From Peteryoungia desertarenae (GTDB lineage Bacteria > Pseudomonadota > Alphaproteobacteria > Rhizobiales > Rhizobiaceae): a DNA stretch of 64,000 nt. Within the stretch, counting starts at the first letter, position 1. Every line of letters starts with the position of its first letter. The DNA is taken from assembly GCF_005860795.2 (NCBI RefSeq), contig NZ_CP058350.1, positions 160,001-224,000 on the forward strand, read 5' to 3'. Below are positions 4,684-17,293 of this stretch, one piece after another. The notes below the pieces were generated by a model, which ran no database searches, was not told the DNA's origin, and was given only the letters and a program-made list of their open reading frames with translations. The translations under genes were made by a program, and so were the position numbers.

Positions 4684-5253
4684 TCAGTTCTTGGCGCGCT
4701 CGACGTAAGAATTGTCTTCGGTCGCGATGACCACTCGCACACCAGCATCGATATGTGGAGGCACCATGGTGCGAATCCCGTTCGACAGCATCGCCGGCTT
4801 GTAGGATGAGGAAGCCGTCTGCCCCTTCACGACCGGTTCCGTTTCTGTGATTTCAAGCGTCACGTGACGCGGCAGCTGGATCGCAAGAGCGACCCCCTCG
4901 TGCATCGACAGGATGCAGACCATGCCCTCTTGCAGATAGGCCTTCTGGTCACCCATGGTCTCGGCATCAACAACCACCTGGTCGTAGCTTTCCGGGTTCA
5001 TGAAGTGGAAGCCTTCACCGTCTTCGTAAAGGAACTGATGGTTGACGTCCTCAACAAAGGCCCGCTCGACCTGCTCGGTCGTCCGCCAGCGCTCGGACAC
5101 CTTCACGCCGTCAACGATGCGGCGCATATTGACCTGCGTGACCGGGGTTCCCTTTCCAGGGTGGAAGTTTTCAGCCGTGAGGACGACGTAGAGCTTGCCG
5201 TCGACATCGAGAACATTGCCCTTGCGGACCGAAGAGGCGATAACCTTGACCAT
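4684..5253 (-). CDS. efp: Translation elongation factor P
   Basis: 189 residues, full length. EF-P enters the ribosomal E site and relieves stalling at polyproline sequences. Three OB-like domains are present: the KOW-like N-terminal domain with the modification loop FHPGKGTP, the middle domain, and the C-terminal domain with the family signature region [15 protein letters not shown] ([16 protein letters not shown]). Lys34 at the loop tip is the residue that EpmA beta-lysylates; the epmA and epmB genes lie directly divergent, so the modification system is complete and local. Start ATG 5253; the protein is very well conserved. Confidence 0.97.
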
Positions 5254-5390
5254 CTGAATTCCTTGTATCTGCTGGTGACCCGTCGTAAAGGACGGTCGTC
5301 CCTGCTGACGTCTTCGAAATGCTTGGGCGCAACTAACCCAAATTCGTCAAAATAGCCAGCCCGTGTTGAAAGAAGGACCTAGAAAGCGGA

Positions 5391-6458
5391 ATGACCGATG
5401 CCAGCCGTTCATCCCCTCAATGGTGGCAGCCATCGATCCACAGTGACCGCCGCCCGTTCCTCCTTGGCCGCAACCGCATCCAGTCAGCCCTGAGAGCCTA
5501 TTTTGCCGAGGATGATTTCACCGAGGTCGATACGGCCAGCCTTCAGATCTCACCGGGGAATGAAGCTCACCTGCACGCCTTCGCCACTGAAGCGATCGGT
5601 AACGACGGCACCCACTCGGCACTTTATCTGCACACCTCGCCCGAATTCGCTTGTAAGAAGCTGCTTTCGGCCGGGGAAGAGCGCATTTTCTGTTTTGCCC
5701 ATGTCTACCGCAACCGCGAGCGTGGGCCACTTCATCATCCCGAATTCACGATGCTCGAATGGTATCGCGTCGGCGAAAGCTATGAGCGACTGATGCAGGA
5801 TTGTGCTTCCATGCTTGCCCTTGCTGCAGAAACAGCGGGGAGCCGTATGTTCTCCTATGGCGGCAAGAGCGTAGATCCCTTTGTCGCTCCCGAGCGGCTA
5901 TCCGTTGCCGACGCCTTCGAGCAATTTGCCAAGATTGACCTTCTGTCGACGATCAGTCCGGACGGCGCCACAGATCGTGAAGCGCTGGCCGATGCACTGC
6001 GGTCCGTCGGCATCCGGATTGCAGCAGACGACACCTGGGCCGATCTTTTCAGCCGCGTCATTGTGGAGAAGGTCGAGCCCCGCTTGGGGATAGGACGCGC
6101 CACCATTCTAGACCGCTATCCCATTGCCGAAGCCGCCCTTGCACGCCCTTGCGCGGATGATCCACGCGTTGCCGAACGGTTTGAGCTTTACGCCTGCGGG
6201 GTCGAACTCGCAAACGCCTTCGGCGAACTGACAAACGCTGATGAGCAGCGACGCCGATTTGAAGCCGAAATGCAGGAGAAAATGCGTGTCTATGGCGAAC
6301 GCTATCCTCTGGATGAGGACTTTCTCTCGGCTCTCGAAATCATGCCGCCAGCCTCGGGCATCGCGCTGGGCTTTGACAGACTGGCAATGCTGGCAACAGG
6401 AGCCCTGCGCATCGATCAGGTCATGTGGAGCCCGGTAGCGGAGGGACAGGGTGGCTGA
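5391..6458 (+). CDS. epmA: EF-P--(R)-beta-lysine ligase (PoxA/GenX/YjeA)
   Basis: 355 residues, close to the family length. It is a lysyl-tRNA-synthetase paralogue without the anticodon-binding domain that attaches beta-lysine to Lys34 of EF-P. Class II synthetase motifs are visible: motif 2 around FCFAHVYRNRERGPLHHPEFTMLEW (shown here by the RNRERGPLHHPEF core) and motif 3 at GIALGFDRLAM near the C-terminus. ATG 5391 is divergent from efp with 137 bases between them. The stop overlaps the epmB start by 8 bases, so the two are translationally coupled. Confidence 0.95.
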   Translation: MTDASRSSPQWWQPSIHSDRRPFLLGRNRIQSALRAYFAEDDFTEVDTASLQISPGNEAHLHAFATEAIGNDGTHSALYLHTSPEFACKKLLSAGEERIFCFAHVYRNRERGPLHHPEFTMLEWYRVGESYERLMQDCASMLALAAETAGSRMFSYGGKSVDPFVAPERLSVADAFEQFAKIDLLSTISPDGATDREALADALRSVGIRIAADDTWADLFSRVIVEKVEPRLGIGRATILDRYPIAEAALARPCADDPRVAERFELYACGVELANAFGELTNADEQRRRFEAEMQEKMRVYGERYPLDEDFLSALEIMPPASGIALGFDRLAMLATGALRIDQVMWSPVAEGQGG

Positions 6459-7491
6459 TCAACCCCTGCGCAGCGTCGACGATCTGATCAAAGCAGAACT
6501 GATCGGAGAGAACGAAAGGGCGGAGCTCTCTGCGCTGGAGAAGCGTTATGCCATCGCACTGACGCCGAGTGTTGCCAGACTGATAGACCGAGACGATCCT
6601 GATGACCCGATCGCCGCCCAATATCTGCCGCGGGTCGATGAACTCAAGGAACATCCCGATGAACGTGCCGATCCGATTGGCGATCAGCCCCATTCGCCGG
6701 TTGAGGGTATCGTTCACCGTTATCCAGATCGGGTCCTTCTGAAACTGGTTCACGTCTGTCCCGTTTATTGCCGCTTCTGCTTCCGCCGCGAAATGGTCGG
6801 ACCACAGGGGGACGGCAACCTGACCAAGCAACAGCTGGCCACTGCGATCGATTACATCGCCAGCCAACAGAGAGTGTGGGAGGTCATCCTCACCGGCGGC
6901 GATCCTTTGATCCTGTCTCCGCGCCGCCTGCAGGATGTTGCGGAGCGTTTGAGCAAGATTGAGCATGTCAAGATCCTCAGGATTCACACCCGTGTCCCTG
7001 CGGTCGATCCAGCGCGCATTTCGGACGAGCTAATCGAGGCGCTCATTCAAAGCGAAAAGCTCGTATACCTCGCTCTTCACGCCAACCATCCGCGCGAGCT
7101 CACATCAGAGGTCCGGGCAGCATGTACGCGGCTGAAAAATGCGGGGGTTGTGCTCATCAGCCAGAGCGTGCTTCTGAAGGGTGTGAATGACGACGCGGAT
7201 ACCCTTGCCGAACTGATGCGCGCCTTTGTTGAGACAGGCATCAACCCCTACTACCTGCATCACCCTGACATGGCACCGGGCACCTCGCATTTTCGGCTGA
7301 CAATCGCCGAAGGCCAGGCACTGATGCGTCAGTTGCGTGCCCGTGTCTCGGGCCTTTGCATCCCGCAATACATACTCGACCTGCCGGGTGGGCATGGGAA
7401 AGTTGCCCTTGGCGAGAATGCCTGGAAGGAAGTTGCCCCAGAACGATACAGCATCCTGGATCGTCATGGGATGGAACATCTCTATCCCTAG
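6451..7491 (+). CDS. epmB: EF-P beta-lysylation radical-SAM lysine 2,3-aminomutase
   Basis: 346 residues from a GTG at 6451 preceded by GAGGGACAGG and overlapping epmA by 8 bases. It converts L-alpha-lysine to (R)-beta-lysine, the substrate of EpmA. The radical-SAM cluster motif CxxxCxxC is at Cys103, Cys107 and Cys110 (CPVYCRFC), followed by the KamA-family signature ILTGGDPL. It has the short C-terminus expected of EpmB rather than the longer catabolic KamA of clostridia. No EpmC hydroxylase gene is next to it. Confidence 0.93.
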   Translation: MADQPLRSVDDLIKAELIGENERAELSALEKRYAIALTPSVARLIDRDDPDDPIAAQYLPRVDELKEHPDERADPIGDQPHSPVEGIVHRYPDRVLLKLVHVCPVYCRFCFRREMVGPQGDGNLTKQQLATAIDYIASQQRVWEVILTGGDPLILSPRRLQDVAERLSKIEHVKILRIHTRVPAVDPARISDELIEALIQSEKLVYLALHANHPRELTSEVRAACTRLKNAGVVLISQSVLLKGVNDDADTLAELMRAFVETGINPYYLHHPDMAPGTSHFRLTIAEGQALMRQLRARVSGLCIPQYILDLPGGHGKVALGENAWKEVAPERYSILDRHGMEHLYP

Positions 7492-7656: not shown

Positions 7657-7908
7657 ATGAACGAAACAATTCGCGCACTTTTGGGCAAGGTCGGCGGTCT
7701 GCCGGTCGCTGTCGAGACAATCGAAGATAACGCGGACCTCTATGCTGTCGGGCTTTCGTCCTTTGCTTCCGTTCAGTTGATGCTGGGCCTGGAAGACTCC
7801 TTTGACATTGAGTTCCCCGACCATCTTCTGAACCGCAAGTCATTCGCCAGCATCCAGGCGATCGAAACCACCGTTCAGACCATTCTCGGGGAACGAAAGG
7901 TCGCCTGA
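7657..7908 (+). CDS. Small carrier protein of an aminoacyl-carrier-protein system
   Basis: 83 residues from ATG 7657, with GAGGAAGGAAG immediately upstream; in-frame starts at 7537 and 7624 are less likely. It has an acyl-carrier-protein fold pattern: DLYAVGLSSFASVQLMLGLED in place of the usual D-S-L block (shown by GLSSF). Ser35 is the predicted phosphopantetheine attachment site; the usual Asp before it is Ser34 and the Leu after it is Phe36. Proteins with this GLSSF variant are known partners of amino acid:[carrier protein] ligases in Bradyrhizobium and Agrobacterium, and such a ligase is encoded two genes downstream. The stop overlaps the next start by one base (TGATG). It is therefore unlikely to be the fatty-acid ACP. 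Confidence 0.88.
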   Translation: MNETIRALLGKVGGLPVAVETIEDNADLYAVGLSSFASVQLMLGLEDSFDIEFPDHLLNRKSFASIQAIETTVQTILGERKVA

Positions 7909-9089
7909 TGGACCTCTCCGGCAAAACGATCGACACGAGCCTCAAGGCTCGGGCAGCACGGGTTGCCGCCGCTGCTGCGCCCCATGCGGACGACGTGGAC
8001 AAGGCTGGCCGCTTCCCCCGCGAGGCGATCGACGCGATGAAGGCCGAAGGGCTTCTCGGCATTCAGATCCCGGTGGACTGCGGTGGTGAAGGCCGCTCGA
8101 TATCCGAAATTGCAGAACTCTGCACGATCATCGCGCAGGCATGCTCGGCAAGTGCGATGATCTTTGCGATGCACCAGATCAAGGTATCGAGCCTCGTTTC
8201 GCACGGCGTCGAGGCTGAATGGCATCGCCAATTCATGCGCCGCATCTGCTCGGAACAACTGCTGCTGGGATCGGCGACGACGGAAGGCGGGATCGGCGGA
8301 AATCTGCGCAATTCGATCTGCGCGATTGAGGTGGAAGGCGACCGATGCCGGCTGGAAAAGGACGCAACCGTCATTTCCTACGGCAAGCAAGCGGACGCCA
8401 TCCTCATCACGTCGCGCGCCCACAAGGATGCGCCGCCGACCGATCAGGTGATGACTGTCTTCCTGAAGGACCAGTACACGCTGGAGCAGACCCATGTCTG
8501 GGATACCCTTGGCATGCGCGGCACATGCTCCGATGGCTTCCTGTTCAAGGGCGAGGCGCCGGCAGAACAGATCCTGCCGAAACCCTTCGCTGAAATTGCA
8601 GCTCAGTCGATGCTGGCAAGTTCGCACCTTCTCTGGAGTGCCCTCTGGTACGGGATCGCCGTCGACGCTTTCACCAAGGCGCAGACCTTTGTCCGCAACG
8701 CCGCCCGCAAGGCCCCCGGCTCGCAGCCGCCAGGTCTGGTTCAGCTTGCCGAAATGTCGAGCCAGTTGCAGGTGATACGATCCAACATTCAAGCTGGCTT
8801 GAAGAGCTACGAAGATGCGCTGAAGGATCATGACCGCTTGTCATCCATGGGCTTTGCCGTCGCCATGAACAACGTCAAGATCGCGTCCTCCGAAATGATC
8901 CTGCCAGTCATCCATCAGGCGCTGAGGATCTGCGGCATCATGGGCTACAAGAACGGCACGCCTTTCAGCCTCGGCAGGCACCTGCGGGATGCCCACTCGG
9001 CAGAATTGATGATTTCAAACGACCGCATCCTCGGCAATACGTCGACAATGCTGCTGGTCCATAGACAAGAAACCGGACTTCTGGGGTAA
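7908..9089 (+). CDS. Acyl-CoA-dehydrogenase-like flavoprotein of the aminoacyl-carrier-protein cluster
   Basis: 393 residues, the usual length for the FAD-dependent acyl-CoA dehydrogenase fold. The N-terminal helical domain ([18 protein letters not shown]), central beta domain and C-terminal domain ([24 protein letters not shown]) are recognisable. In place of the common Y-E-G-T motif near the C-terminus it reads RILGNTSTM, so the usual catalytic Glu is not at that position. Its start overlaps the carrier-protein stop and the ligase gene follows 5 bases later, so its substrate is probably an aminoacyl group on the carrier protein, as in prolyl-carrier dehydrogenases of antibiotic pathways. 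That is an inference. It has no CoA-thioester pathway genes around it. Confidence 0.82.
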
Positions 9090-9094
9090 TCAAC

Positions 9095-10003
9095 ATGGAT
9101 ATGCAGGTAAGCTTCCTCGACCGCCTTTTTGAAAGCGGACTGCTGATCGAGACGGGCGTCGATGGCCTTTACGGCCGCAGTGGGCAGTTTGAGGATGTGA
9201 TTGCCGCATTCGAACGGCTGATTGACCGCTACGGTGCTGCAGATGGCGCAGAAGCGATCCGCTTTCCTCCCGGCATGAACCGGGCCTACTTCGAAAAAAG
9301 CGGTTACATGAAGAGCTTTCCGCAGCTTGCAGGCACTGTTCATTCCTTCTGCGGCAACGACCACGACCATCTTGGTCTCCTGCAATGCATGGAGGAAGGC
9401 AAGGACTGGACGACGGAGCAGAAGGCGACAGACATCGCCCTCACCCCGGCTGCCTGCTATCCGCTGTATCCGACAATCGCCAAGCGTGGACCGCTTCCGG
9501 CCAAAGGTGGTCTCTTCGACCTGCAATCCTATTGCTTCCGCCATGAACCCTCCAAGGACCCGGCACGTCAGCAGCTCTTCCGTATGCGGGAATATGTCTG
9601 CATGGGCACGGAAGCCGACGTGACCGCCTTCCGCCAGACATGGATGGACCGCGGCGTCGAAATGATGAAATCCGTGGGTCTTGATGTTGAAATCGATGTG
9701 GCCAACGACCCCTTCTTTGGCCGCGCAGGGCGTCTGCTGGCCAACAACCAACGCGATCAGAACCTGAAGTTCGAGCTTCTCATCCCGGTGACGTCGCAGA
9801 CGAACAAAACGGCCTGCATGAGCTTCAACTATCATCAGGACGCCTTTGGCACGAAATGGGGCCTCTCTCTTGCGGATGGCTCCGTCGCGCACACGGCCTG
9901 CGTCGGTTGGGGTCTTGAGCGAATTGCCCTTGCCCTGTTCGCCAAGCATGGTCTCGATGTAAACATCTGGCCGGAGAATGTCCGAAGGACCCTCTGGGGC
10001 TGA
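9095..10003 (+). CDS. Amino acid:[carrier protein] ligase (atypical seryl-tRNA synthetase homologue)
   Basis: 302 residues, a class II synthetase catalytic core without the tRNA-binding arm of seryl-tRNA synthetase. Homologues in Bradyrhizobium (Bll0957) and Agrobacterium activate glycine or alanine and load it on a dedicated carrier protein, not on tRNA. Visible landmarks are motif 2 near residues 147-167 ([20 protein letters not shown]), motif 3 near 271-282 ([12 protein letters not shown]) and the three expected zinc ligands Cys121, Glu166 and Cys269. ATG 9095 follows the dehydrogenase-like gene by 5 bases. It sits in one operon with its likely carrier-protein partner. The amino acid specificity cannot be read from the sequence with certainty. 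Confidence 0.93.
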
Positions 10004-10010
10004 TCCCGAA

Positions 10011-10976
10011 ATGTCTGCAGTCTTTCCCGCACTGAGCCCGGTGGGCCACAAGCCGCATCCACTGCATTCGAGCGAGCGGATGTGGCCGGAAACCAATTGC
10101 TATGTCGACCTCTGGATCGAGGCCCTTCAGGCCCATGGGGTGGAACCATTGGCGATGCTGGGCTTCACCCTGACCCAGGACTTCGAGGGCGACCAGTTCA
10201 CCTTCTTCAAGGTCCCACTCGAGGATCTTGAAGACCTATACAAGATCAGGGTCACTGAATTGGCAATCTTCGATCGTGTCGAAGCCCATGCGCTGGAACA
10301 GATTTCCCGCGGGCGACTCTGCCTCGTGGAGATGGACAGCTACTATATGCCCGACACACAGGGCGTCGGCTATCGTAACGAGCACGGCAAGACGACGGTC
10401 GGCATCAATCGGCTGGATCTGACCGGACGCTCCATGGAATACTTCCATAATGGCGGCTATTTCCGTCTGGAGGGTGAAGACTTCGAGGGTGTGTTCCACC
10501 TGAATACATCGGAGACCGCAATTCCCTTCCTGCCTTATACAGAATTTGCAAAATTTCCCGCTGAACCGACGTCCACGAAACATCAACGCGAAATCGCGGA
10601 CCGATTGCTGAAACGTCATTTTGCAAGGCGTCCGGATGAAAATCCGATCAGGGCCTTCGCGTCAGTCTTCCCGCAGCAAGTGGCGGCGGTGGCCGAGAGA
10701 CCCTTTGATTTCTTTCATAAATACGCCTTCAACACGCTACGCCAATTCGGCGCCAATTTCGAACTTCTGGCCGCTCACCTGAGCTGGCTTGATGCCGTAC
10801 GCCATGAGGCGTCGATCGCCGCAGCTCTTGCCGTCAGCGAAAATGCCAAGACCGTCCAGTTCCAGTTGGCGCGTGCGGTCGCGCGAAAGAAGTTCGAGCC
10901 CCTCGCATCAGCCCTTGATCCGGCGGTCGCGGCGTGGGATCGCTTGATGGAGGATCTGGGCACAAGGCTCGGCTGA
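10011..10976 (+). CDS. DUF1839 family protein of the aminoacyl-carrier-protein cluster
   Basis: 321 residues from ATG 10011; an in-frame ATG at 9978, inside the ligase gene, would add 11 residues and cannot be excluded. The start of the conserved region is the WPETNCYVDLWIE segment near residue 25; other notable segments are DQFTFFKVPLEDLEDLY and the acidic DSYYMPDT. No signal peptide or membrane segment is seen. The family has no function I can state, but its members occur next to aminoacyl-carrier-protein ligases, so it could be the enzyme that takes the aminoacyl group from the carrier. That is only an inference from position. Confidence 0.8.
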   Translation: MSAVFPALSPVGHKPHPLHSSERMWPETNCYVDLWIEALQAHGVEPLAMLGFTLTQDFEGDQFTFFKVPLEDLEDLYKIRVTELAIFDRVEAHALEQISRGRLCLVEMDSYYMPDTQGVGYRNEHGKTTVGINRLDLTGRSMEYFHNGGYFRLEGEDFEGVFHLNTSETAIPFLPYTEFAKFPAEPTSTKHQREIADRLLKRHFARRPDENPIRAFASVFPQQVAAVAERPFDFFHKYAFNTLRQFGANFELLAAHLSWLDAVRHEASIAAALAVSENAKTVQFQLARAVARKKFEPLASALDPAVAAWDRLMEDLGTRLG

Positions 10977-10986
10977 GGGGACCCAC

Positions 10987-13458
10987 ATGGCAGCAGGCAC
11001 GATCTACCTTGGAGCGGACATAAGGCCGCTCGAACAGGGATGGCGCATGCTGGTAACCGAGGCAGGTCGCTACACGGAGCCCTCCGAACTTCATCGCCTG
11101 GCCGTGCGCATTCCGGCAACAGTTCCCGGCACAGTCGCAGCTGCTCTCGCTGACGCAGGTCTTTTCGATCCGGAAAACCCTACGTCACTGCACGACAAGG
11201 ATGCCTGGTATATCCGCTCGCTTGAGGGGGAGAACCCGGGTCCCGCAGTTCTTCGTTTCGAAGGTCTCGCCACATTCGCCGAGATCTATATCAACGGCGA
11301 ACTTCGCCTTTCCTGTAACAGCATGTTCGAGGCCTTCGATCTGGAACTGGACCTGACCGGTCATGACGAGCTGGCCATCTGTTTCCGCGCTCTGACACCG
11401 CATCTTGAAAAACGCGGTCCCCGCGCCCGCTGGCGACAGCAACTCGTCGACCACCAGGGGTTCCGGATGATCCGCACCAGTCTTCTGGGGCGCATGCCCG
11501 GCTGGTGCCCCGAGATCCATCCGCTTGGGCCCTACCGCCCGATCTCGCTGATCCGCAAGGGTCAGCTTGAGCTGGCAGGCCTCACCATCCGCACCGATCT
11601 GCTGGAAGACGGGACAGGTACCGCCAAGGTCGCTTTCAACGCGAGCTCGTCAGAGGTCGAGCTTGTACTCGACTGCGGCGGATACAAGGGAGCGTTCCAA
11701 CCGCAGCCTGACGGGCGATTGGTGGCGAGCCTTTCAATCCCGGATGCTGAACCGTGGTGGCCGAGGACCCATGGCAAGCCGTGTCTTCATGAACTGGGGC
11801 TGACAGTTGATGGACAACGTCACTCACTCGGCCTGATTGGGTTTCGAAGGATCGAGGTGGACAAGGGCCCAGACGGCCAGGGCTTCGCGTTGAAGATCAA
11901 TGGCGAACGCATCTTTTGCCGGGGTGCTGTCTGGACAAATGCCGACATTCTGCGCCTCCCAGGTTTTTCCGAGCACTACGCCCCCTGGCTTCTAAAAGCT
12001 GCGGAAGCAAACATGAACATGATCCGCATTGGCGGAACCATGACTTATGAGAGCCGCGATTTCTTCCGACTTTGCGACCAGCTCGGCATCCTCGTCTGGC
12101 AGGATCTGATGCTTGCCAATTACGATTATCCGGTGAAGGACGAGTTGTTCCTCAACGGCTTGAAGGAGGAAGTTCGGCAGCGGCTGACGGACCTTCAGGG
12201 ACATCCATCACTCGCCGTCATCTGCGGCGGCAGCGAGGTCTTCCAGCAAGGGGCGATGCTAGGTCTGCCTGAAAACGTCTGGAAGAGCCCTCTCTTCACC
12301 GAGATTTTGCCGCAACTGGCATCTGGTCTGCGCCCGGACTGCGTCTATGTCGCCAATTCACCCTGCGACGGGCCCATGCCCTTTTCGCCCAATCGAGGCG
12401 TGACGCATTATTATGGTGTTGGCGCCTATCAGCGCCCGCTTGACGATGTCCGCCGGGCAAATGTTCGCTTTGCCGCCGAATGTCTCGCCTTTGCCCATGT
12501 CCCGCAACAGCAGACCCTTGACCGCCATCTGCCTGTCGCACCCGTTCATGACCCGCGCTGGAAGGCACGGGTCCCGCGCGACCGTAATGCATCCTGGGAT
12601 TTCGAAGACATTCGCGACCACTATGTTGAACGGCTATACGATCTCGACGCCGCCCGCCTTAGACGCGAAGATCTCGCCCGCCATCTCGACCATTCACGAG
12701 CGGTGACAGCAGAGATCATGACCGAGGTCATGGCAGAGTGGCGTCGCGCAGGTTCGGATTGCGGCGGCGCGCTCACCTGGACTTTCCAGGATTTGGTCCC
12801 GGGTCCCGGCTGGGGCCTGATCGATGCGACAGGAGAGCCCAAATCACCCTGGTATGCGCTTCGCCGTGCCTTCAGGCCCGTGCAGTTGAACCTCTTGGAC
12901 GAAGGCACCAACGGCCTCGACATTCATATCCTCAATGATACTGCGGAGACCCTGGTTTCCAATCTTGAGCTAACTTGCCTTCGTGACGGACGACAGGTCG
13001 TCGTCTCGGGTCGCCGAGCATTGGAAGTCGCACCACGAGGAGCTGTGCGATTTGCCGCCACCGACATCTTCGGAGCCTTCTTTGACACGACCTATGCCTT
13101 CCGCTTCGGACCACCGTCGCACGACGTGACAATCGCCCGCCTGCTTGACAGTGAAAGTCAGATCATAGCTGAAGCCTTCCAGTTCCCTCTGGGCAGGAGC
13201 CGTGCCATGCACGCCGCCGAGTTAACGGCTCAATTGGTGGAGACTGACGGTATGTTCTGGCTCCAGATTGAAGCCGACAGATTGGCGCAATCTGTTCATA
13301 TCGAATGTGAAACGCATCGCCCCGAGGATGACTGGTTCCACTGCGCGCCGCATGCGCCACGCGTGATACGGCTCTTGCCACGCAATATCACTTCATCTTC
13401 GACGCGGCCCACCGGCCATATCCACCAGCTCGGCAGCCGATCAACAACAAGCTTCTGA
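10987..13458 (+). CDS. Glycoside hydrolase family 2 protein, beta-mannosidase-like
   Basis: 823 residues from ATG 10987, with GAGGGG just upstream. The order is a sugar-binding jelly-roll domain (RIPATVPGTV... FEGLATFAEIYINGE), an immunoglobulin-like domain, then the TIM-barrel with MNMIRIGG and a GGSE motif where beta-mannosidases carry the acid/base Glu (usually GNNE). A Glu in the segment FAAECLA may be the nucleophile. It has no signal peptide, so it is cytoplasmic. It is the last gene of the aminoacyl-carrier-protein operon and meets the flippase gene convergently with 9 bases between the stops. It may act on a sugar part of the cluster product; the substrate is unknown. Confidence 0.8.
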   Translation: MAAGTIYLGADIRPLEQGWRMLVTEAGRYTEPSELHRLAVRIPATVPGTVAAALADAGLFDPENPTSLHDKDAWYIRSLEGENPGPAVLRFEGLATFAEIYINGELRLSCNSMFEAFDLELDLTGHDELAICFRALTPHLEKRGPRARWRQQLVDHQGFRMIRTSLLGRMPGWCPEIHPLGPYRPISLIRKGQLELAGLTIRTDLLEDGTGTAKVAFNASSSEVELVLDCGGYKGAFQPQPDGRLVASLSIPDAEPWWPRTHGKPCLHELGLTVDGQRHSLGLIGFRRIEVDKGPDGQGFALKINGERIFCRGAVWTNADILRLPGFSEHYAPWLLKAAEANMNMIRIGGTMTYESRDFFRLCDQLGILVWQDLMLANYDYPVKDELFLNGLKEEVRQRLTDLQGHPSLAVICGGSEVFQQGAMLGLPENVWKSPLFTEILPQLASGLRPDCVYVANSPCDGPMPFSPNRGVTHYYGVGAYQRPLDDVRRANVRFAAECLAFAHVPQQQTLDRHLPVAPVHDPRWKARVPRDRNASWDFEDIRDHYVERLYDLDAARLRREDLARHLDHSRAVTAEIMTEVMAEWRRAGSDCGGALTWTFQDLVPGPGWGLIDATGEPKSPWYALRRAFRPVQLNLLDEGTNGLDIHILNDTAETLVSNLELTCLRDGRQVVVSGRRALEVAPRGAVRFAATDIFGAFFDTTYAFRFGPPSHDVTIARLLDSESQIIAEAFQFPLGRSRAMHAAELTAQLVETDGMFWLQIEADRLAQSVHIECETHRPEDDWFHCAPHAPRVIRLLPRNITSSSTRPTGHIHQLGSRSTTSF

Positions 13459-13467
13459 CGTGGATTG

Positions 13468-14985
13468 TCAGAGCCCGCGACCGGCAAAGAGGAAACGGGA
13501 AAGCAGGCCGGTCAAGAACGACACTCGTTTCGGAAGACGGGCCAGCAATCCTTCTATTACCGGCCTGTCACTGTCAGGGAAGGCTTTGAACAGTCTCAGT
13601 CCGATCGGATAGGCAACAATACCCGCAAGAATCGCCAACACGAGGCCTATGAGACCAGTCAAGCCTTCCAGAACCATATATGCGGCTATAGCCGTAAGAA
13701 GTGCGGCACCCATTATGCGTAGAAGCTGCGGACCGAGACTTGCGAGACTGCCATCAAACTCCATGATCTTGAACATCAGACCAATCATGACGATGAGGCT
13801 GAGGATACGGACGATGGCAGCCCCCTCCCCTGCCCACGTCGGAATGAGCAGAAACGAGCCCGCAACCGTGATGACCGCCCCCGCAACACTGATCATCAGA
13901 CGTGCCTTGATCCGATCCTGCGACAACAGATATTGCGTACAAAGGGCCGCAAGGACATAAAGCGGGGCCACCATCGCGAGCAGCACGAGAATAGTCCCGC
14001 TTTCGGCAAAGGCTGGACCGAAAACCGCAGTCACGAGCCGAGGCGCAACGACAGCGAGACCGAAGCTCAGAGGCAGGGTGATATAGGCGAGGTTCCGCAG
14101 GACATTGGCAAAGGTCATAGCAGGCAACCGGCGATGTCCAGCCTTCTGCATTTGCTCCGAATAATAAGGCAGTAGGCTTCCCGTCAGCTGAACTGGCAAC
14201 TGGAGCGCCAGATTGGCCAGCGACAGTGCTACGGCATAGTAGCCGACCATTTCGACCCCGTGGAACCGCTCTAGAAACAAGAGCTCAAGACGGTTGAGAA
14301 AGACCGAGTCGACGACATACATCACCGAAAGAATTGTCGAAGAGCCGGCAAGATAGCGGGAGGACAAGCCGCAATTGTCGGCGCGGTAGCGCAACAGGCC
14401 GAGGGTGTAGAAAAACTGCAGTGTAAAACCGAAGACATAGCCCAAAAGAGCGCCTGGTATGCCGAAAAAGACGGCACCCAGAACGACAGCGGTCAGTTGC
14501 AGCAGTCCCGCCGCAAGCGACATCTTGAAGAAGGTGCCGACCTCCTGCTCGCCCAGCAGCACATTCTTCGAATAGGCACCGATCGACTGGACGATAATCA
14601 AAAGCCCCGTGATCGCGGCAACGCTTGGCGCACTGGTTGCCCAGTGTTCATGGTCTGCCATCCAGACATAGCCGCCATAAACCGCAACGATGATCAGCGT
14701 CGCGATGATCACCGGACGCAGCATGAAGGCGGCAAAACCGCGCCGCTCGGCGAGAGAACGGTTCTGCCCCTTTAATTGCGGTAGAAGCCGCAAAAGGGTG
14801 ACGCCAGTACCAAGTTCTGCGATCAGCGCAGCCGTGAGCGCCAGCCAGAGAGAAAAGGCGATTGTTCCACTTGCGGCGGGACCGAGCAGCCGCGCGGTGA
14901 CAATCGAGCAGATGAAACCGATCAAGAGCAATGTAAGCCCGGCAGCTGCATTGAGAGCCGAGTTCGCAACAACCCGATGGCTCAT
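13468..14985 (-). CDS. Polysaccharide flippase, Wzx/MATE-like
   Basis: 505 residues with about 12-14 hydrophobic segments over the entire length, starting with LTLLLIGFICSIVTARLLGPAA, the typical N-terminus of polysaccharide biosynthesis (RfbX/Wzx) exporters. It should flip lipid-linked oligosaccharide repeat units across the inner membrane. Its start overlaps the stop of the upstream glycosyltransferase gene by 4 bases, making it the third gene of a minus-strand operon of two glycosyltransferases and the flippase. Confidence 0.85.
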   Translation of the reverse strand: MSHRVVANSALNAAAGLTLLLIGFICSIVTARLLGPAASGTIAFSLWLALTAALIAELGTGVTLLRLLPQLKGQNRSLAERRGFAAFMLRPVIIATLIIVAVYGGYVWMADHEHWATSAPSVAAITGLLIIVQSIGAYSKNVLLGEQEVGTFFKMSLAAGLLQLTAVVLGAVFFGIPGALLGYVFGFTLQFFYTLGLLRYRADNCGLSSRYLAGSSTILSVMYVVDSVFLNRLELLFLERFHGVEMVGYYAVALSLANLALQLPVQLTGSLLPYYSEQMQKAGHRRLPAMTFANVLRNLAYITLPLSFGLAVVAPRLVTAVFGPAFAESGTILVLLAMVAPLYVLAALCTQYLLSQDRIKARLMISVAGAVITVAGSFLLIPTWAGEGAAIVRILSLIVMIGLMFKIMEFDGSLASLGPQLLRIMGAALLTAIAAYMVLEGLTGLIGLVLAILAGIVAYPIGLRLFKAFPDSDRPVIEGLLARLPKRVSFLTGLLSRFLFAGRGL

Positions 14986-16121
14986 GGCGAAGGTCCGGAT
15001 GCTTCCAGACCAAACAGCCGCTCAACCGTTTCTTCCCAGTCCAGAATCGATGAAACGTCGATACTGTTGCGATCGTAGGACATGGCGCATCGGAATGCGG
15101 CAAGCATGGAAGCGGCTTCACCGGGTCGATAGCCACTGACATGATCGCGACCGGTCGCTGCGAAGTCTGGCGCAACAATCGGTAGACGACAATAGCTGTA
15201 CTGGATCATTTTCAGGCTCGACTGGCTGAGATAGTCGGCATCCTTACTGGGTCGGTAGGACGCAAGGCCGATATCGGCAAACTTGATGAAGGGTACAATT
15301 GCAGAAAACGGTACTTCGCCATGCACCACGATGTTGGAGCGCATCTGGCTGGGCTTTGCGTTGCGCCCAAAGACGTGAAAGTTCCATTCGGGAAATGATA
15401 CTGACAGGACATCGATCAGTTCAGGATCAAACAGCATGTCACCGACGCTGATTGCGTTTCGCTCAGAAGCATAGGGATTGGACGAGGACTGGTCGAACTC
15501 GGCCTTGCTGATGCCATGCGGCAGATAGAGGATCGGCGCATCGGTGGAAAAGTCTGAGCGCAGTGCTTCCGCCATGATGTGCACGAGATCGTAGCTTTGC
15601 AGCGTACGACCGAGTTCTTTCTCGATCACTGGGTGTGCGGAAATTGTCCGAAGACGATCTGCCGCATGATAGATGAAGCGCGCCTTCTGAGCGAGATTGC
15701 GCAATCGAGACGTAAGCAGCGGGCTGGGACCACTCTCTATGAGGATATGACTGTAATCGGTCAACCGTTCTGTCAGGGCGCGCGGCAGGAAAAGCCCGTA
15801 TCGTGCAAAGATGGGACCGGATAGCCGATTGAGCAACGGGAGGCGCAGATTGATCGGATGAAAAGGTGCAACCCAGACGAATTGCTCAAGACGGTCGCCA
15901 AGCCTAACCCAACGATTGGACGGGCGCCGCCTTGCTTCTTGATAGCGTCCATCCCTGATGAGCCGACTGATAGGGCTAAGCCGGCAAATAAGGAAATCCA
16001 CATGGTCACCACGCGCCCGCAGCGCATCCGCCATGAAATGCAGGTCGACCTTGCGGGCTGAGTCCGCGAAGTGATGGCCGGTGACGATCAGAACACGCCG
16101 CATCGCAGAAGCTGACGTCAT
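14982..16121 (-). CDS. Glycosyltransferase, GumK (GT70)-like
   Basis: 379 residues, starting at ATG 16121, which overlaps the preceding gene by 4 bases. The N-terminal Rossmann part begins VLIVTGHHFADSARKVDLHF; the segment FVWVAPFHPINLR and the C-terminal nucleotide-sugar domain (HVFGRNAKP... ADIGLASYRP) resemble GumK, the glucuronosyltransferase of xanthan synthesis. The donor sugar is therefore possibly UDP-glucuronate, but this is only a resemblance. It has no membrane anchor and is probably peripheral at the inner membrane. It lies between a GT4 gene and the flippase gene. Confidence 0.72.
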   Translation of the reverse strand: MTSASAMRRVLIVTGHHFADSARKVDLHFMADALRARGDHVDFLICRLSPISRLIRDGRYQEARRRPSNRWVRLGDRLEQFVWVAPFHPINLRLPLLNRLSGPIFARYGLFLPRALTERLTDYSHILIESGPSPLLTSRLRNLAQKARFIYHAADRLRTISAHPVIEKELGRTLQSYDLVHIMAEALRSDFSTDAPILYLPHGISKAEFDQSSSNPYASERNAISVGDMLFDPELIDVLSVSFPEWNFHVFGRNAKPSQMRSNIVVHGEVPFSAIVPFIKFADIGLASYRPSKDADYLSQSSLKMIQYSYCRLPIVAPDFAATGRDHVSGYRPGEAASMLAAFRCAMSYDRNSIDVSSILDWEETVERLFGLEASGPSP

Positions 16122-17293
16122 GGGCGGCTCGCCTTCAAAGCCTCGGAGTAGACGGCGATATGCCTCTGGGTCACGTCAGCCCAGCCATGGGTGGCTGCGG
16201 CTTGCATCACCGCACCGCGCACTTTTTGCGGATCCTCAACAAGGCGCCGATAGGCGGCCTCGATAGCGGTCGCCGCTGTCTCCGGTTCGGAAAAGTCGGT
16301 GATCTGGACATCAGCATGGCGTCGCTGCAAAGCCAAGTAGGCCTCATTGCCGTGAAGCACGGGCAGTAGTCCGGCACTCATCGCTTCAACGGCGACAAGT
16401 CCGAAACCTTCATAGTCGGAGGCGGAAGCAAAAAGACTGTTGCGGGCAAGAAGACTGCGGATCTGATCATTCTCCAGCCCGACGTGGACGGAAACATGTT
16501 GATCCAGAGCACGGCGTTTTACATTCTCAGCTATGTCGGTCTCGGTCCAGTCGGAGGGTGCTCCTACGATATCAAGATGCCATTGGCGATCTCTCTGCAC
16601 GAGCACGCTTAGGCTGTCGAGCAGGTGATCAAGGCGCTTGTTGGAGGAGAAACGTCCAACCGTCACAATGCTGCGTCGCGGCTCCCTTGACGCAGCATCA
16701 ACAAACTTTGCCACATCGACGCCATTTTCGATCATGACAGCTCGCCCGGCCGCAATCGGCTGAAACATCTCCAGGTCAGATTGGCTGCAACATATGACCG
16801 ATTGATACCCTGTCGCGGAAAGGCGTGTGGCAGTAGAAAACCAGATCCGCTTCAGTGCAGCGTATTTCTTTGTGTGAAAAAACCCCCCATGCGTTGTGGC
16901 AACCAGTGGTTTTCCATGCAGCATTCGGGTCCACGCTAACGCGTCGAAGAAGAAATCAACCCCATGCACGTGCACCAGATCGGCATCACGAATGTGACGG
17001 AACACCTGCGGGGCGATCGGGTAGCGACTGCTGCCACGCCAGGGAATACGAACGACGCCAACTGAGCCAACCTGCTCCCACTTCGGCAATGTTTTTTCTG
17101 GCTGACGAAAGAGCCTGTCAAGGGTCACAACACGGACCCGATATCCATGGTGCTGCAGGTTGGCAGACAGATTGGCAACCACATCTTCAAGCCCGCCCCT
17201 GCTGGGTGCATACTGCCGGACAACATGAACGATCAGTGGGCTGAGGGGCGCGCTGGAATACACACCGTCCTCATGAGGATTTTCGCCCTGCAT
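16118..17293 (-). CDS. GT4-family glycosyltransferase
   Basis: 391 residues. Two Rossmann domains of the GT-B fold: the N-terminal one has the glycine-rich acceptor loop YAPSRGGLEDVV, and the C-terminal one contains VGRFSSNKRLDHLLDSL and the nucleotide-sugar binding motif ASDYEGFGLVAVEAMSAG with the EX7E pattern. It is the first gene of the minus-strand polysaccharide operon, 4 bases overlapping with the next glycosyltransferase. It adds a sugar, retaining configuration, to the growing lipid-linked repeat unit; the specific sugar cannot be predicted. Confidence 0.85.
   Translation of the reverse strand: MQGENPHEDGVYSSAPLSPLIVHVVRQYAPSRGGLEDVVANLSANLQHHGYRVRVVTLDRLFRQPEKTLPKWEQVGSVGVVRIPWRGSSRYPIAPQVFRHIRDADLVHVHGVDFFFDALAWTRMLHGKPLVATTHGGFFHTKKYAALKRIWFSTATRLSATGYQSVICCSQSDLEMFQPIAAGRAVMIENGVDVAKFVDAASREPRRSIVTVGRFSSNKRLDHLLDSLSVLVQRDRQWHLDIVGAPSDWTETDIAENVKRRALDQHVSVHVGLENDQIRSLLARNSLFASASDYEGFGLVAVEAMSAGLLPVLHGNEAYLALQRRHADVQITDFSEPETAATAIEAAYRRLVEDPQKVRGAVMQAAATHGWADVTQRHIAVYSEALKASRP

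Follow-up and report, generated by a model that had tools for sequence, protein, structure and literature searches.

We examined a five-gene operon at positions 7657-13458 of a 64,000-nucleotide stretch of the Peteryoungia desertarenae contig NZ_CP058350.1 (the window, by which we mean the whole stretch). A preliminary description of this DNA had read the operon as an undescribed pathway in which an amino acid is charged to a carrier protein (CP), oxidized as its thioester, transferred by a DUF1839 protein and used in a sugar step. Re-reading of the open reading frames bore out the gene content, the coordinates and the tight spacing (-1, 5, 7 and 10 bases) given there. The genes are:

7657-7908, + strand: CP, 83 aa (open reading frame, with PF00550 and NF005480)
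7908-9089, + strand: flavoprotein with the acyl-CoA dehydrogenase (ACAD) fold, 393 aa (PF02771 and PF00441, Acyl-CoA_dh_N and Acyl-CoA_dh_1)
9095-10003, + strand: amino acid:[carrier protein] ligase, 302 aa, class II and like seryl-tRNA synthetase (SerRS), without the tRNA-binding arm (NF005479)
10011-10976, + strand: DUF1839 protein, 321 aa (PF08893); an alternative ATG start at 9978 would make the gene overlap that of the ligase
10987-13458, + strand: GH2 beta-mannosidase-like glycosidase, 823 aa (PF22666, Glyco_hydro_2_N2)

The neighbourhood survey that the preliminary description called for found that these five genes, here termed the cassette, occur together. The genome of the window (4.34 Mb, 3 contigs) has a single match each for ligase and DUF1839, and the nearest named DUF1839 genes are those of Rhizobium sp. 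PDO1-076 (79%) and other Rhizobiaceae, including Peteryoungia and Allorhizobium. Of 100 relatives, 59 have a ligase scoring above its cut-off (62 if any match is counted); DUF1839 was found in 57, all of them among the 59, lying directly 3' of the ligase by coordinates. Across 398 genomes of the phylum, the 16 with DUF1839 all fell within the 28 with a ligase above cut-off (44 with any match). We fetched 40 neighbourhoods, 23 of which pair the ligase with DUF1839; each of these 23 holds the complete set of five, identically ordered and on a single strand. Of the others, 11 have ligase and flavoprotein without DUF1839 or GH2 (9 of the 11 with a divergent CP), 5 have distant ligases and 1 has a lone second DUF1839 gene. 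The cassette was complete in all eight further intact named loci, on chromids or plasmids (Burkholderia cenocepacia, Mycetohabitans, two Azospirillum, three Cupriavidus and one Caballeronia), in 72/72 named Rhizobiaceae loci longer than 20 kb and, in order, in 78 of the 80 such loci of any length, the exceptions being L278, which is truncated at the end of its contig, and L297, without CP and flavoprotein. The partial cassette of L297 and a broken, plasmid-borne remnant (L153:11474-13474), downstream of which a non-ribosomal peptide synthetase (NRPS) gene is annotated, belong to Rhizobium leguminosarum Vaf-46 and Vaf10, respectively.

The first two partners are closely related to characterized proteins. 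The ligase scored 512.1 bits (cut-off 357) against NF005479, 'amino acid--[acyl-carrier-protein] ligase', and matched PDB entries 4h2w and 3mey (Bll0957) with E-values of 6e-97 and 4e-92. Residues C121, E166 and C269, positioned by the PDB alignment, are kept in 82/82 distinct sequences (distinct in core segment, here and below, a gene fetched twice being counted once); we take them to be the Cys-Glu-Cys Zn ligands of the atypical SerRS, whose roles are known from Bll0957. The CP scored 115.7 bits (cut-off 72) against NF005480 and matched 2jq4 and 4h2w at E 2e-31, being closest to Atu2571, solved alone as 2jq4, and to the CP of 4h2w, an entry that also contains a Bll0957-type ligase. By alignment S35, the second serine of GLSSF, is the phosphopantetheine attachment site, and it is kept in 47/47 distinct CPs; the motif, previously called atypical, is normal for this family. 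Family membership and conserved residues thus favour charging of the CP as proposed, and the ligase very probably loads an amino acid on it. Homologous ligases load Gly or Ala. The pairs Atu2573/Atu2571 and Bll0957, reportedly described by Mocibob et al. in 2010 (a study cited in PMC2922099), belong to the same NCBIfam equivalogs as the ligase and CP here, which are near to the solved proteins; to our knowledge, a physiological use of those pairs has not been demonstrated.

The DUF1839 protein matched PF08893 at 432.7 bits, and its AlphaFold2 model (pLDDT 90.8) comprises a papain-like cysteine domain and a helical bundle, the best whole-length fold matches being CtaG, the AziU2-U3 complex and CcbD. 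C30 lies at the N-terminus of helix 30-42 of the model and is present in 67 of 72 distinct sequences, while H146 and D157 are present in all 72; these three are the predicted catalytic residues, with H125 as a further candidate. In whole-length fold, and in having a predicted catalytic cysteine and histidine, the model resembles cysteine acyltransferases of the CcbD/CtaG type, so that DUF1839 is probably a CP-dependent enzyme of this kind and the transfer role given to it earlier gains in plausibility. The product of CcbD is an amide between an amino acid delivered by a CP and an amino sugar. AziU3 acts on nitrogen in a small-molecule pathway. CtaG likewise forms amides in such a pathway (PMC6772006). 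Five genomes, three of Cupriavidus and two others of one family (f100), carry paired DUF1839 genes (L117/L128, L118, L154, L157 and L158), in which the operon copy lacks the cysteine and the second copy has it.

The cassette has a likely sixth partner, a tandem hydrolase of about 600 residues made of two alpha/beta-hydrolase domains. In L112, L121, L122, two Azospirillum loci (L152 and L159) and Mycetohabitans (L151) its gene lies 3' of GH2 in the same orientation; it is convergent with GH2 in 8 of 11 Rhizobiaceae neighbourhoods (L125-L149). In all six proteins scanned, one half matched TIGR03101 (exosortase-A hydrolase 2) and the other TIGR03100 (exosortase-A hydrolase 1), with scores short of the curated cut-offs (60-108 bits against 202.75 for TIGR03101 and 89-123 bits against 168.45 for TIGR03100), and we regard them as relatives of these families, not members. 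Scored across the phylum by a TIGR03100 match of E<=1e-12 within an open frame of 575 aa or more, that is, by score and length alone, the tandem hydrolase was found in 16/16 genomes with DUF1839 and 0/12 with the ligase only; G416 and G222 were the only others among the 398 genomes. Family f35 genomes, which we take as Bradyrhizobium-like, have ligase loci without DUF1839, GH2 or tandem hydrolase, unlike the cassette here. Within the genus, 48 of 54 genomes at least 90% complete have the tandem hydrolase (E<=1e-30, one match each), and these are exactly the cassette carriers; the gene lies near the cassette in 28 (45-100% identity to the query) and elsewhere in 20 (31-40%). The six genomes without cassette or hydrolase are mutually similar and share one arrangement, so that their absences amount to approximately one loss. 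In the genome of the window the hydrolase is a 32% match on another contig, with two hydrolase domains by Pfam, and it adjoins apparent ABC-transporter genes (judged by the starts of the open reading frames).

For the flavoprotein the earlier proposal found no support. Its AlphaFold2 model (pLDDT 89.9) has the ACAD fold, and oxidation by an ordinary acyl-thioester dehydrogenase had been suggested. The canonical catalytic bases of such enzymes are E376 of MCAD and E254 of IVD. In 82 distinct sequences position 369, at the MCAD-type site, is always Ile, and position 239, at the IVD-type site, is Ser (54), Ala (24), Thr (3) or Cys (1); in a 21-sequence alignment no conserved Glu was found at either segment, whichever register was used. 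We accordingly do not count the protein as an acyl-CoA dehydrogenase in the catalytic sense, despite its fold, and because neither site has a conserved Glu an ordinary alpha,beta-dehydrogenase is less likely. The register itself is sequence-based: counting without gaps and aligning to 7p98 both lead to I369, and alignment to the window's own GCDH-like ACAD places the YEGT Glu opposite I374. Because the register is not firm we lowered our estimate for oxygenase-type chemistry slightly, to even odds. Oxygenation, as guessed in 2010 for the neighbourhood discussed below, and amine oxidation remain as options, the predicted substrate being the CP-bound amino acid. Fold neighbours include dehydrogenases, monooxygenases (DszC, TdsC, MsuC and KijD3), a desulfinase and ColB1, whose structure title describes it as a carrier-tethered cysteine dehydrogenase, and fold rank does not tell these apart. 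It is also conceivable that flavoprotein and CP make a free building block, a modified amino acid (an imine, oxime or glyoxylyl thioester, for example), and that the only task of DUF1839 is to release it by hydrolysis. A papain-like fold could do so, and the tandem hydrolase has an alpha/beta fold; yet the closest folds to DUF1839 are condensing enzymes and two release enzymes would be redundant, so we consider this improbable.

GH2 matched beta-mannosidases of the PDB at E 3e-49. E417 and E498, placed by this alignment and presumably the acid/base and the nucleophile, are kept in 35/35 sequences, which makes the proposed sugar step plausible. No signal peptide was visible when the sequence was read by eye, and the enzyme is probably cytoplasmic. 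Sugar-related genes also lie next to the operon, as context and not as part of its core:

13468-14985, - strand: Wzx-like polysaccharide flippase (PF13440), the convergent neighbour
14982-16121, - strand: GumK-like glucuronosyltransferase (PF22059, 190 bits)
16118-17293, - strand: GT4 glycosyltransferase (PF13439 and PF00534)

The GumK-like gene is found in 31 of the 54 genomes of the genus (in G024 through a 34% match) and in none of the six that lack the cassette. Wzx, GumK, GT4 or Wzc genes of the types found in the window lie within 10 kb of the cassette in 45 of the 72 named Rhizobiaceae loci longer than 20 kb, and cassette loci of Burkholderiaceae encode Wzc and Wzy together with a sugar transferase and a sigma-54 activator of VpsR type.

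The B. cenocepacia locus has a CRP-type regulator upstream of the CP gene and a VpsR-type activator downstream of GH2. Beyond the activator come ManC, a pair of glycosyltransferases and proteins of Wzc-like and GH5-like type; after these lie Wzx, a further glycosyltransferase and the tandem hydrolase. Judged by protein type, the cassette is thus flanked by a BerA-type and a BerB-type regulator, and BerA and BerB control the exopolysaccharide Bep (PMC3584217, PMC5552954, PMC9684580). The published bep cluster, Bcam1330-1341, contains the TIGR03100 protein Bcam1334 with a glycosyltransferase and Wzx after it, and the regulators BerB and BerA are Bcam1342 and Bcam1349, respectively (PMC3584217 Table 2, PMC5552954, PMC9684580). 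Since its flanking regulators correspond in type to these two, the cassette should lie within Bcam1343-1348, a placement by gene type and order and not by comparison with the J2315 sequence. The fit to the published table is partial, a second Wzc-like and the GH5-like gene being missing from the table, and the terms 'acyl carrier' and 'acyl-CoA dehydrogenase' are absent from the main texts of PMC3584217 and PMC9684580. GGDEF-EAL proteins are encoded beside the CP gene or near the ligase gene in two loci of different families (L110:2887-5199 and L147:5300-8164), in line with a cyclic di-GMP (c-di-GMP) theme.

Taken together, we put at about 50% the probability that the operon encodes a carrier-protein-dependent aminoacylation module serving a surface polysaccharide, and a sugar or polysaccharide as the acceptor has the same even chance. 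From the observed gene set, families, conserved residues, fold match and co-occurrence we infer reactions in the host, an acceptor, a polysaccharide link and roles for GH2 and hydrolase as follows. The SerRS-like ligase would adenylate a small amino acid (analogy points to Gly or Ala) and load it on the phosphopantetheine of the CP. The flavoprotein would then modify the bound amino acid, oxygenation or amine oxidation being likelier than ordinary alpha,beta-desaturation. The cysteine of DUF1839 would take the acyl group and hand it on to a sugar or a precursor of one, at an amine or, with lower probability, at a hydroxyl; CcbD and LmbD act in this way in lincosamide synthesis. The cytoplasmic GH2 and the tandem hydrolase might trim, edit or recycle intermediates. 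Charging, transfer and a sugar step are retained from the earlier pathway, and ordinary thioester oxidation and the claim of an undescribed system are not.

Several observations weigh against this reading. CtaG makes amides without a sugar, hence the fold of DUF1839 is no proof of a sugar acceptor. None of the four window-type polysaccharide genes was found in 27 of the 72 long Rhizobiaceae loci or in the 14 kb read of G047, a cassette-bearing genome, and none is annotated within 12 kb in Caballeronia (L160). Lacking the base, the flavoprotein might instead be a lyase, the 3SP-CoA desulfinase being a structural neighbour, and ColB1 is named as a dehydrogenase. TIGR03100 is broad, with some weak match in 283/398 genomes and 8/14 control genomes, and the unlinked hydrolase copies, that of the window's genome included, are only 31-40% identical to the linked type and are thus at most putative orthologues.

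Loci without polysaccharide genes would suit a diffusible product, an amino acid modified and amidated in the manner of CtaG and secreted as a soluble peptide or glycoside, for instance a signal or siderophore-like compound, next to polysaccharide genes by chance. CtaG and AziU3 both come from small-molecule pathways, and in L160 the operon is flanked by a TonB receptor and transporters. We nevertheless think such a product unlikely: the glycan context recurs in alpha- and betaproteobacteria, GH2 is always present and the tandem hydrolase almost always, and no constant exporter was seen among the partly annotated neighbours.

Bep, the polysaccharide of what seems to be the B. cenocepacia locus, is a further difficulty, being a Gal-Glc-Gal-Man polymer without amino sugar (PMC7084887). 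It was, however, extracted in 0.3 M NaOH and measured in alkali (PMC7084887), and an ester on Bep would therefore be lost; an amide is not readily removed, which counts against the amide proposed here. Possible acceptors are an ester site, a non-repeating part of the polymer and another molecule. DUF1839 or the tandem hydrolase might move the amino acid to an exopolysaccharide hydroxyl in a Dlt-like fashion. Bcam1334 in the bep cluster, the tandem hydrolase of the B. cenocepacia locus and the distant ligases near MBOAT genes (L116, L137) fit such an ester. Yet CcbD and CtaG form amides, AziU3 also acts on nitrogen and the cassette has no membrane acyltransferase, and we rate the ester slightly below the diffusible product.

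The gene set itself has been known since 2010. In a note added in proof, PMC2922099 lists an acyl carrier protein, a redox enzyme, the conserved uncharacterized Atu2574, a glycosidase and lipo- or polysaccharide genes around the SerRS paralogue, guesses oxygenation for the redox enzyme and predicts that an amino acid is joined by an amide bond to a surface amino sugar. These are the same genes and the same prediction as for the cassette here, and 'undescribed' was therefore too strong; on our reading, from gene order and annotation of the type in PMC10318531, Atu2574 is DUF1839. What the excerpts of PMC2922099 do not contain is a tandem hydrolase, a fold assignment or a link to bep or exosortase loci. 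In non-exhaustive searches of CC-licensed PMC papers we found in print neither the tandem hydrolase partner, the CcbD-type fold, the pair of Cys-less and Cys-bearing DUF1839 genes, the position between the bep regulators nor the exosortase parallel. New here are the hydrolase partner, the fold match of DUF1839 and the link to biofilm polysaccharide genes.

Three further known systems are close to the cassette. The lincosamide synthetases (LmbC/LmbN-CP/LmbD and CcbC/CcbZ-CP/CcbD) also combine a stand-alone loading enzyme, a CP and a cysteine condensing enzyme of the same fold, and join an amino acid to an amino sugar; their loader is an NRPS adenylation domain, whereas ours is SerRS-like, and they make an antibiotic instead of a surface polymer, so that the cassette works alike without being a member. 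We know of no ACAD or GH2 in lincosamide synthetase. The exosortase-A set (TIGR03098-TIGR03101: ligase, CP, hydrolases 2 and 1 and a pyridoxal phosphate-dependent decarboxylase) shares a CP, a loader and a related hydrolase pair, but has an AMP-ligase that is not SerRS-like, separate hydrolases and, in the one locus tested (L205), a decarboxylase in place of the flavoprotein. In five loci of this type (L199-L202 and L205) a CP-like open reading frame adjoins the hydrolase genes, the TIGR03098 ligase being confirmed in L199, L200 and L202 and the TIGR03099 decarboxylase in L205. Butirosin BtrH is likewise papain-like in fold and moves an acyl group from an acyl carrier protein to an aminoglycoside (PMC10318531), although it belongs to another family and is absent from the PDB fold match lists. 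G416 has an operon (L203:5514-9306) of an adenylation domain (TIGR01733, above cut-off), an NF005480 CP and the tandem hydrolase, with Wzc near, and profile searches of this genome found neither SerRS-like ligase nor DUF1839. The G416-type and exosortase-A-type sets may be sisters of the cassette.

Some neighbouring and related loci were noted besides. Distant ligases (~30% identity) lie beside the MBOAT genes of L116 and L137, an arrangement that recalls Dlt-type D-alanylation with a loader like an aminoacyl-tRNA synthetase (aaRS) replacing DltA. Another distant ligase (L138:7289-11461) accompanies an AurF-type N-oxygenase and KAS III-like and thioester-reductase-like proteins, perhaps a biosynthetic cluster. 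G429, which has the ligase and lacks DUF1839, encodes a 2106-aa NRPS-like open reading frame (judged by its start alone) beside a single-domain TIGR03100-like protein (L204:9659-15976). Upstream of the operon (4684-7491) the window holds efp (- strand) and the genes of a LysRS paralogue resembling EpmA and an aminomutase resembling EpmB; EpmB lies within 10 kb of the cassette in 56 of the 72 long Rhizobiaceae loci and is labelled in 9 of 40 other neighbourhoods, all from the family of the window's genome.

The aaRS-like ligases have had an activity without a pathway since 2010, and the DUF1839 fold match, the likely sixth partner and a plausible home among c-di-GMP-controlled biofilm polysaccharide genes narrow the use of the loaded amino acid to a few options. 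Tentatively, and with clearly less confidence than in the general reading, we propose that the six-part module (CP, loader, flavoprotein, CcbD-like DUF1839, GH2 and the fused hydrolase 2+1) is an amino-acid-loading branch of alpha- and betaproteobacterial exopolysaccharide assembly. It would decorate a surface polymer with a modified amino acid, would lie between c-di-GMP effectors at the bep locus of Burkholderia, and would be the aaRS-driven sister to the set that loads acyl groups or amino acids in exosortase-A loci. If this is true, some biofilm polymers would carry amino-acid groups that were hidden by alkaline purification or never sought.

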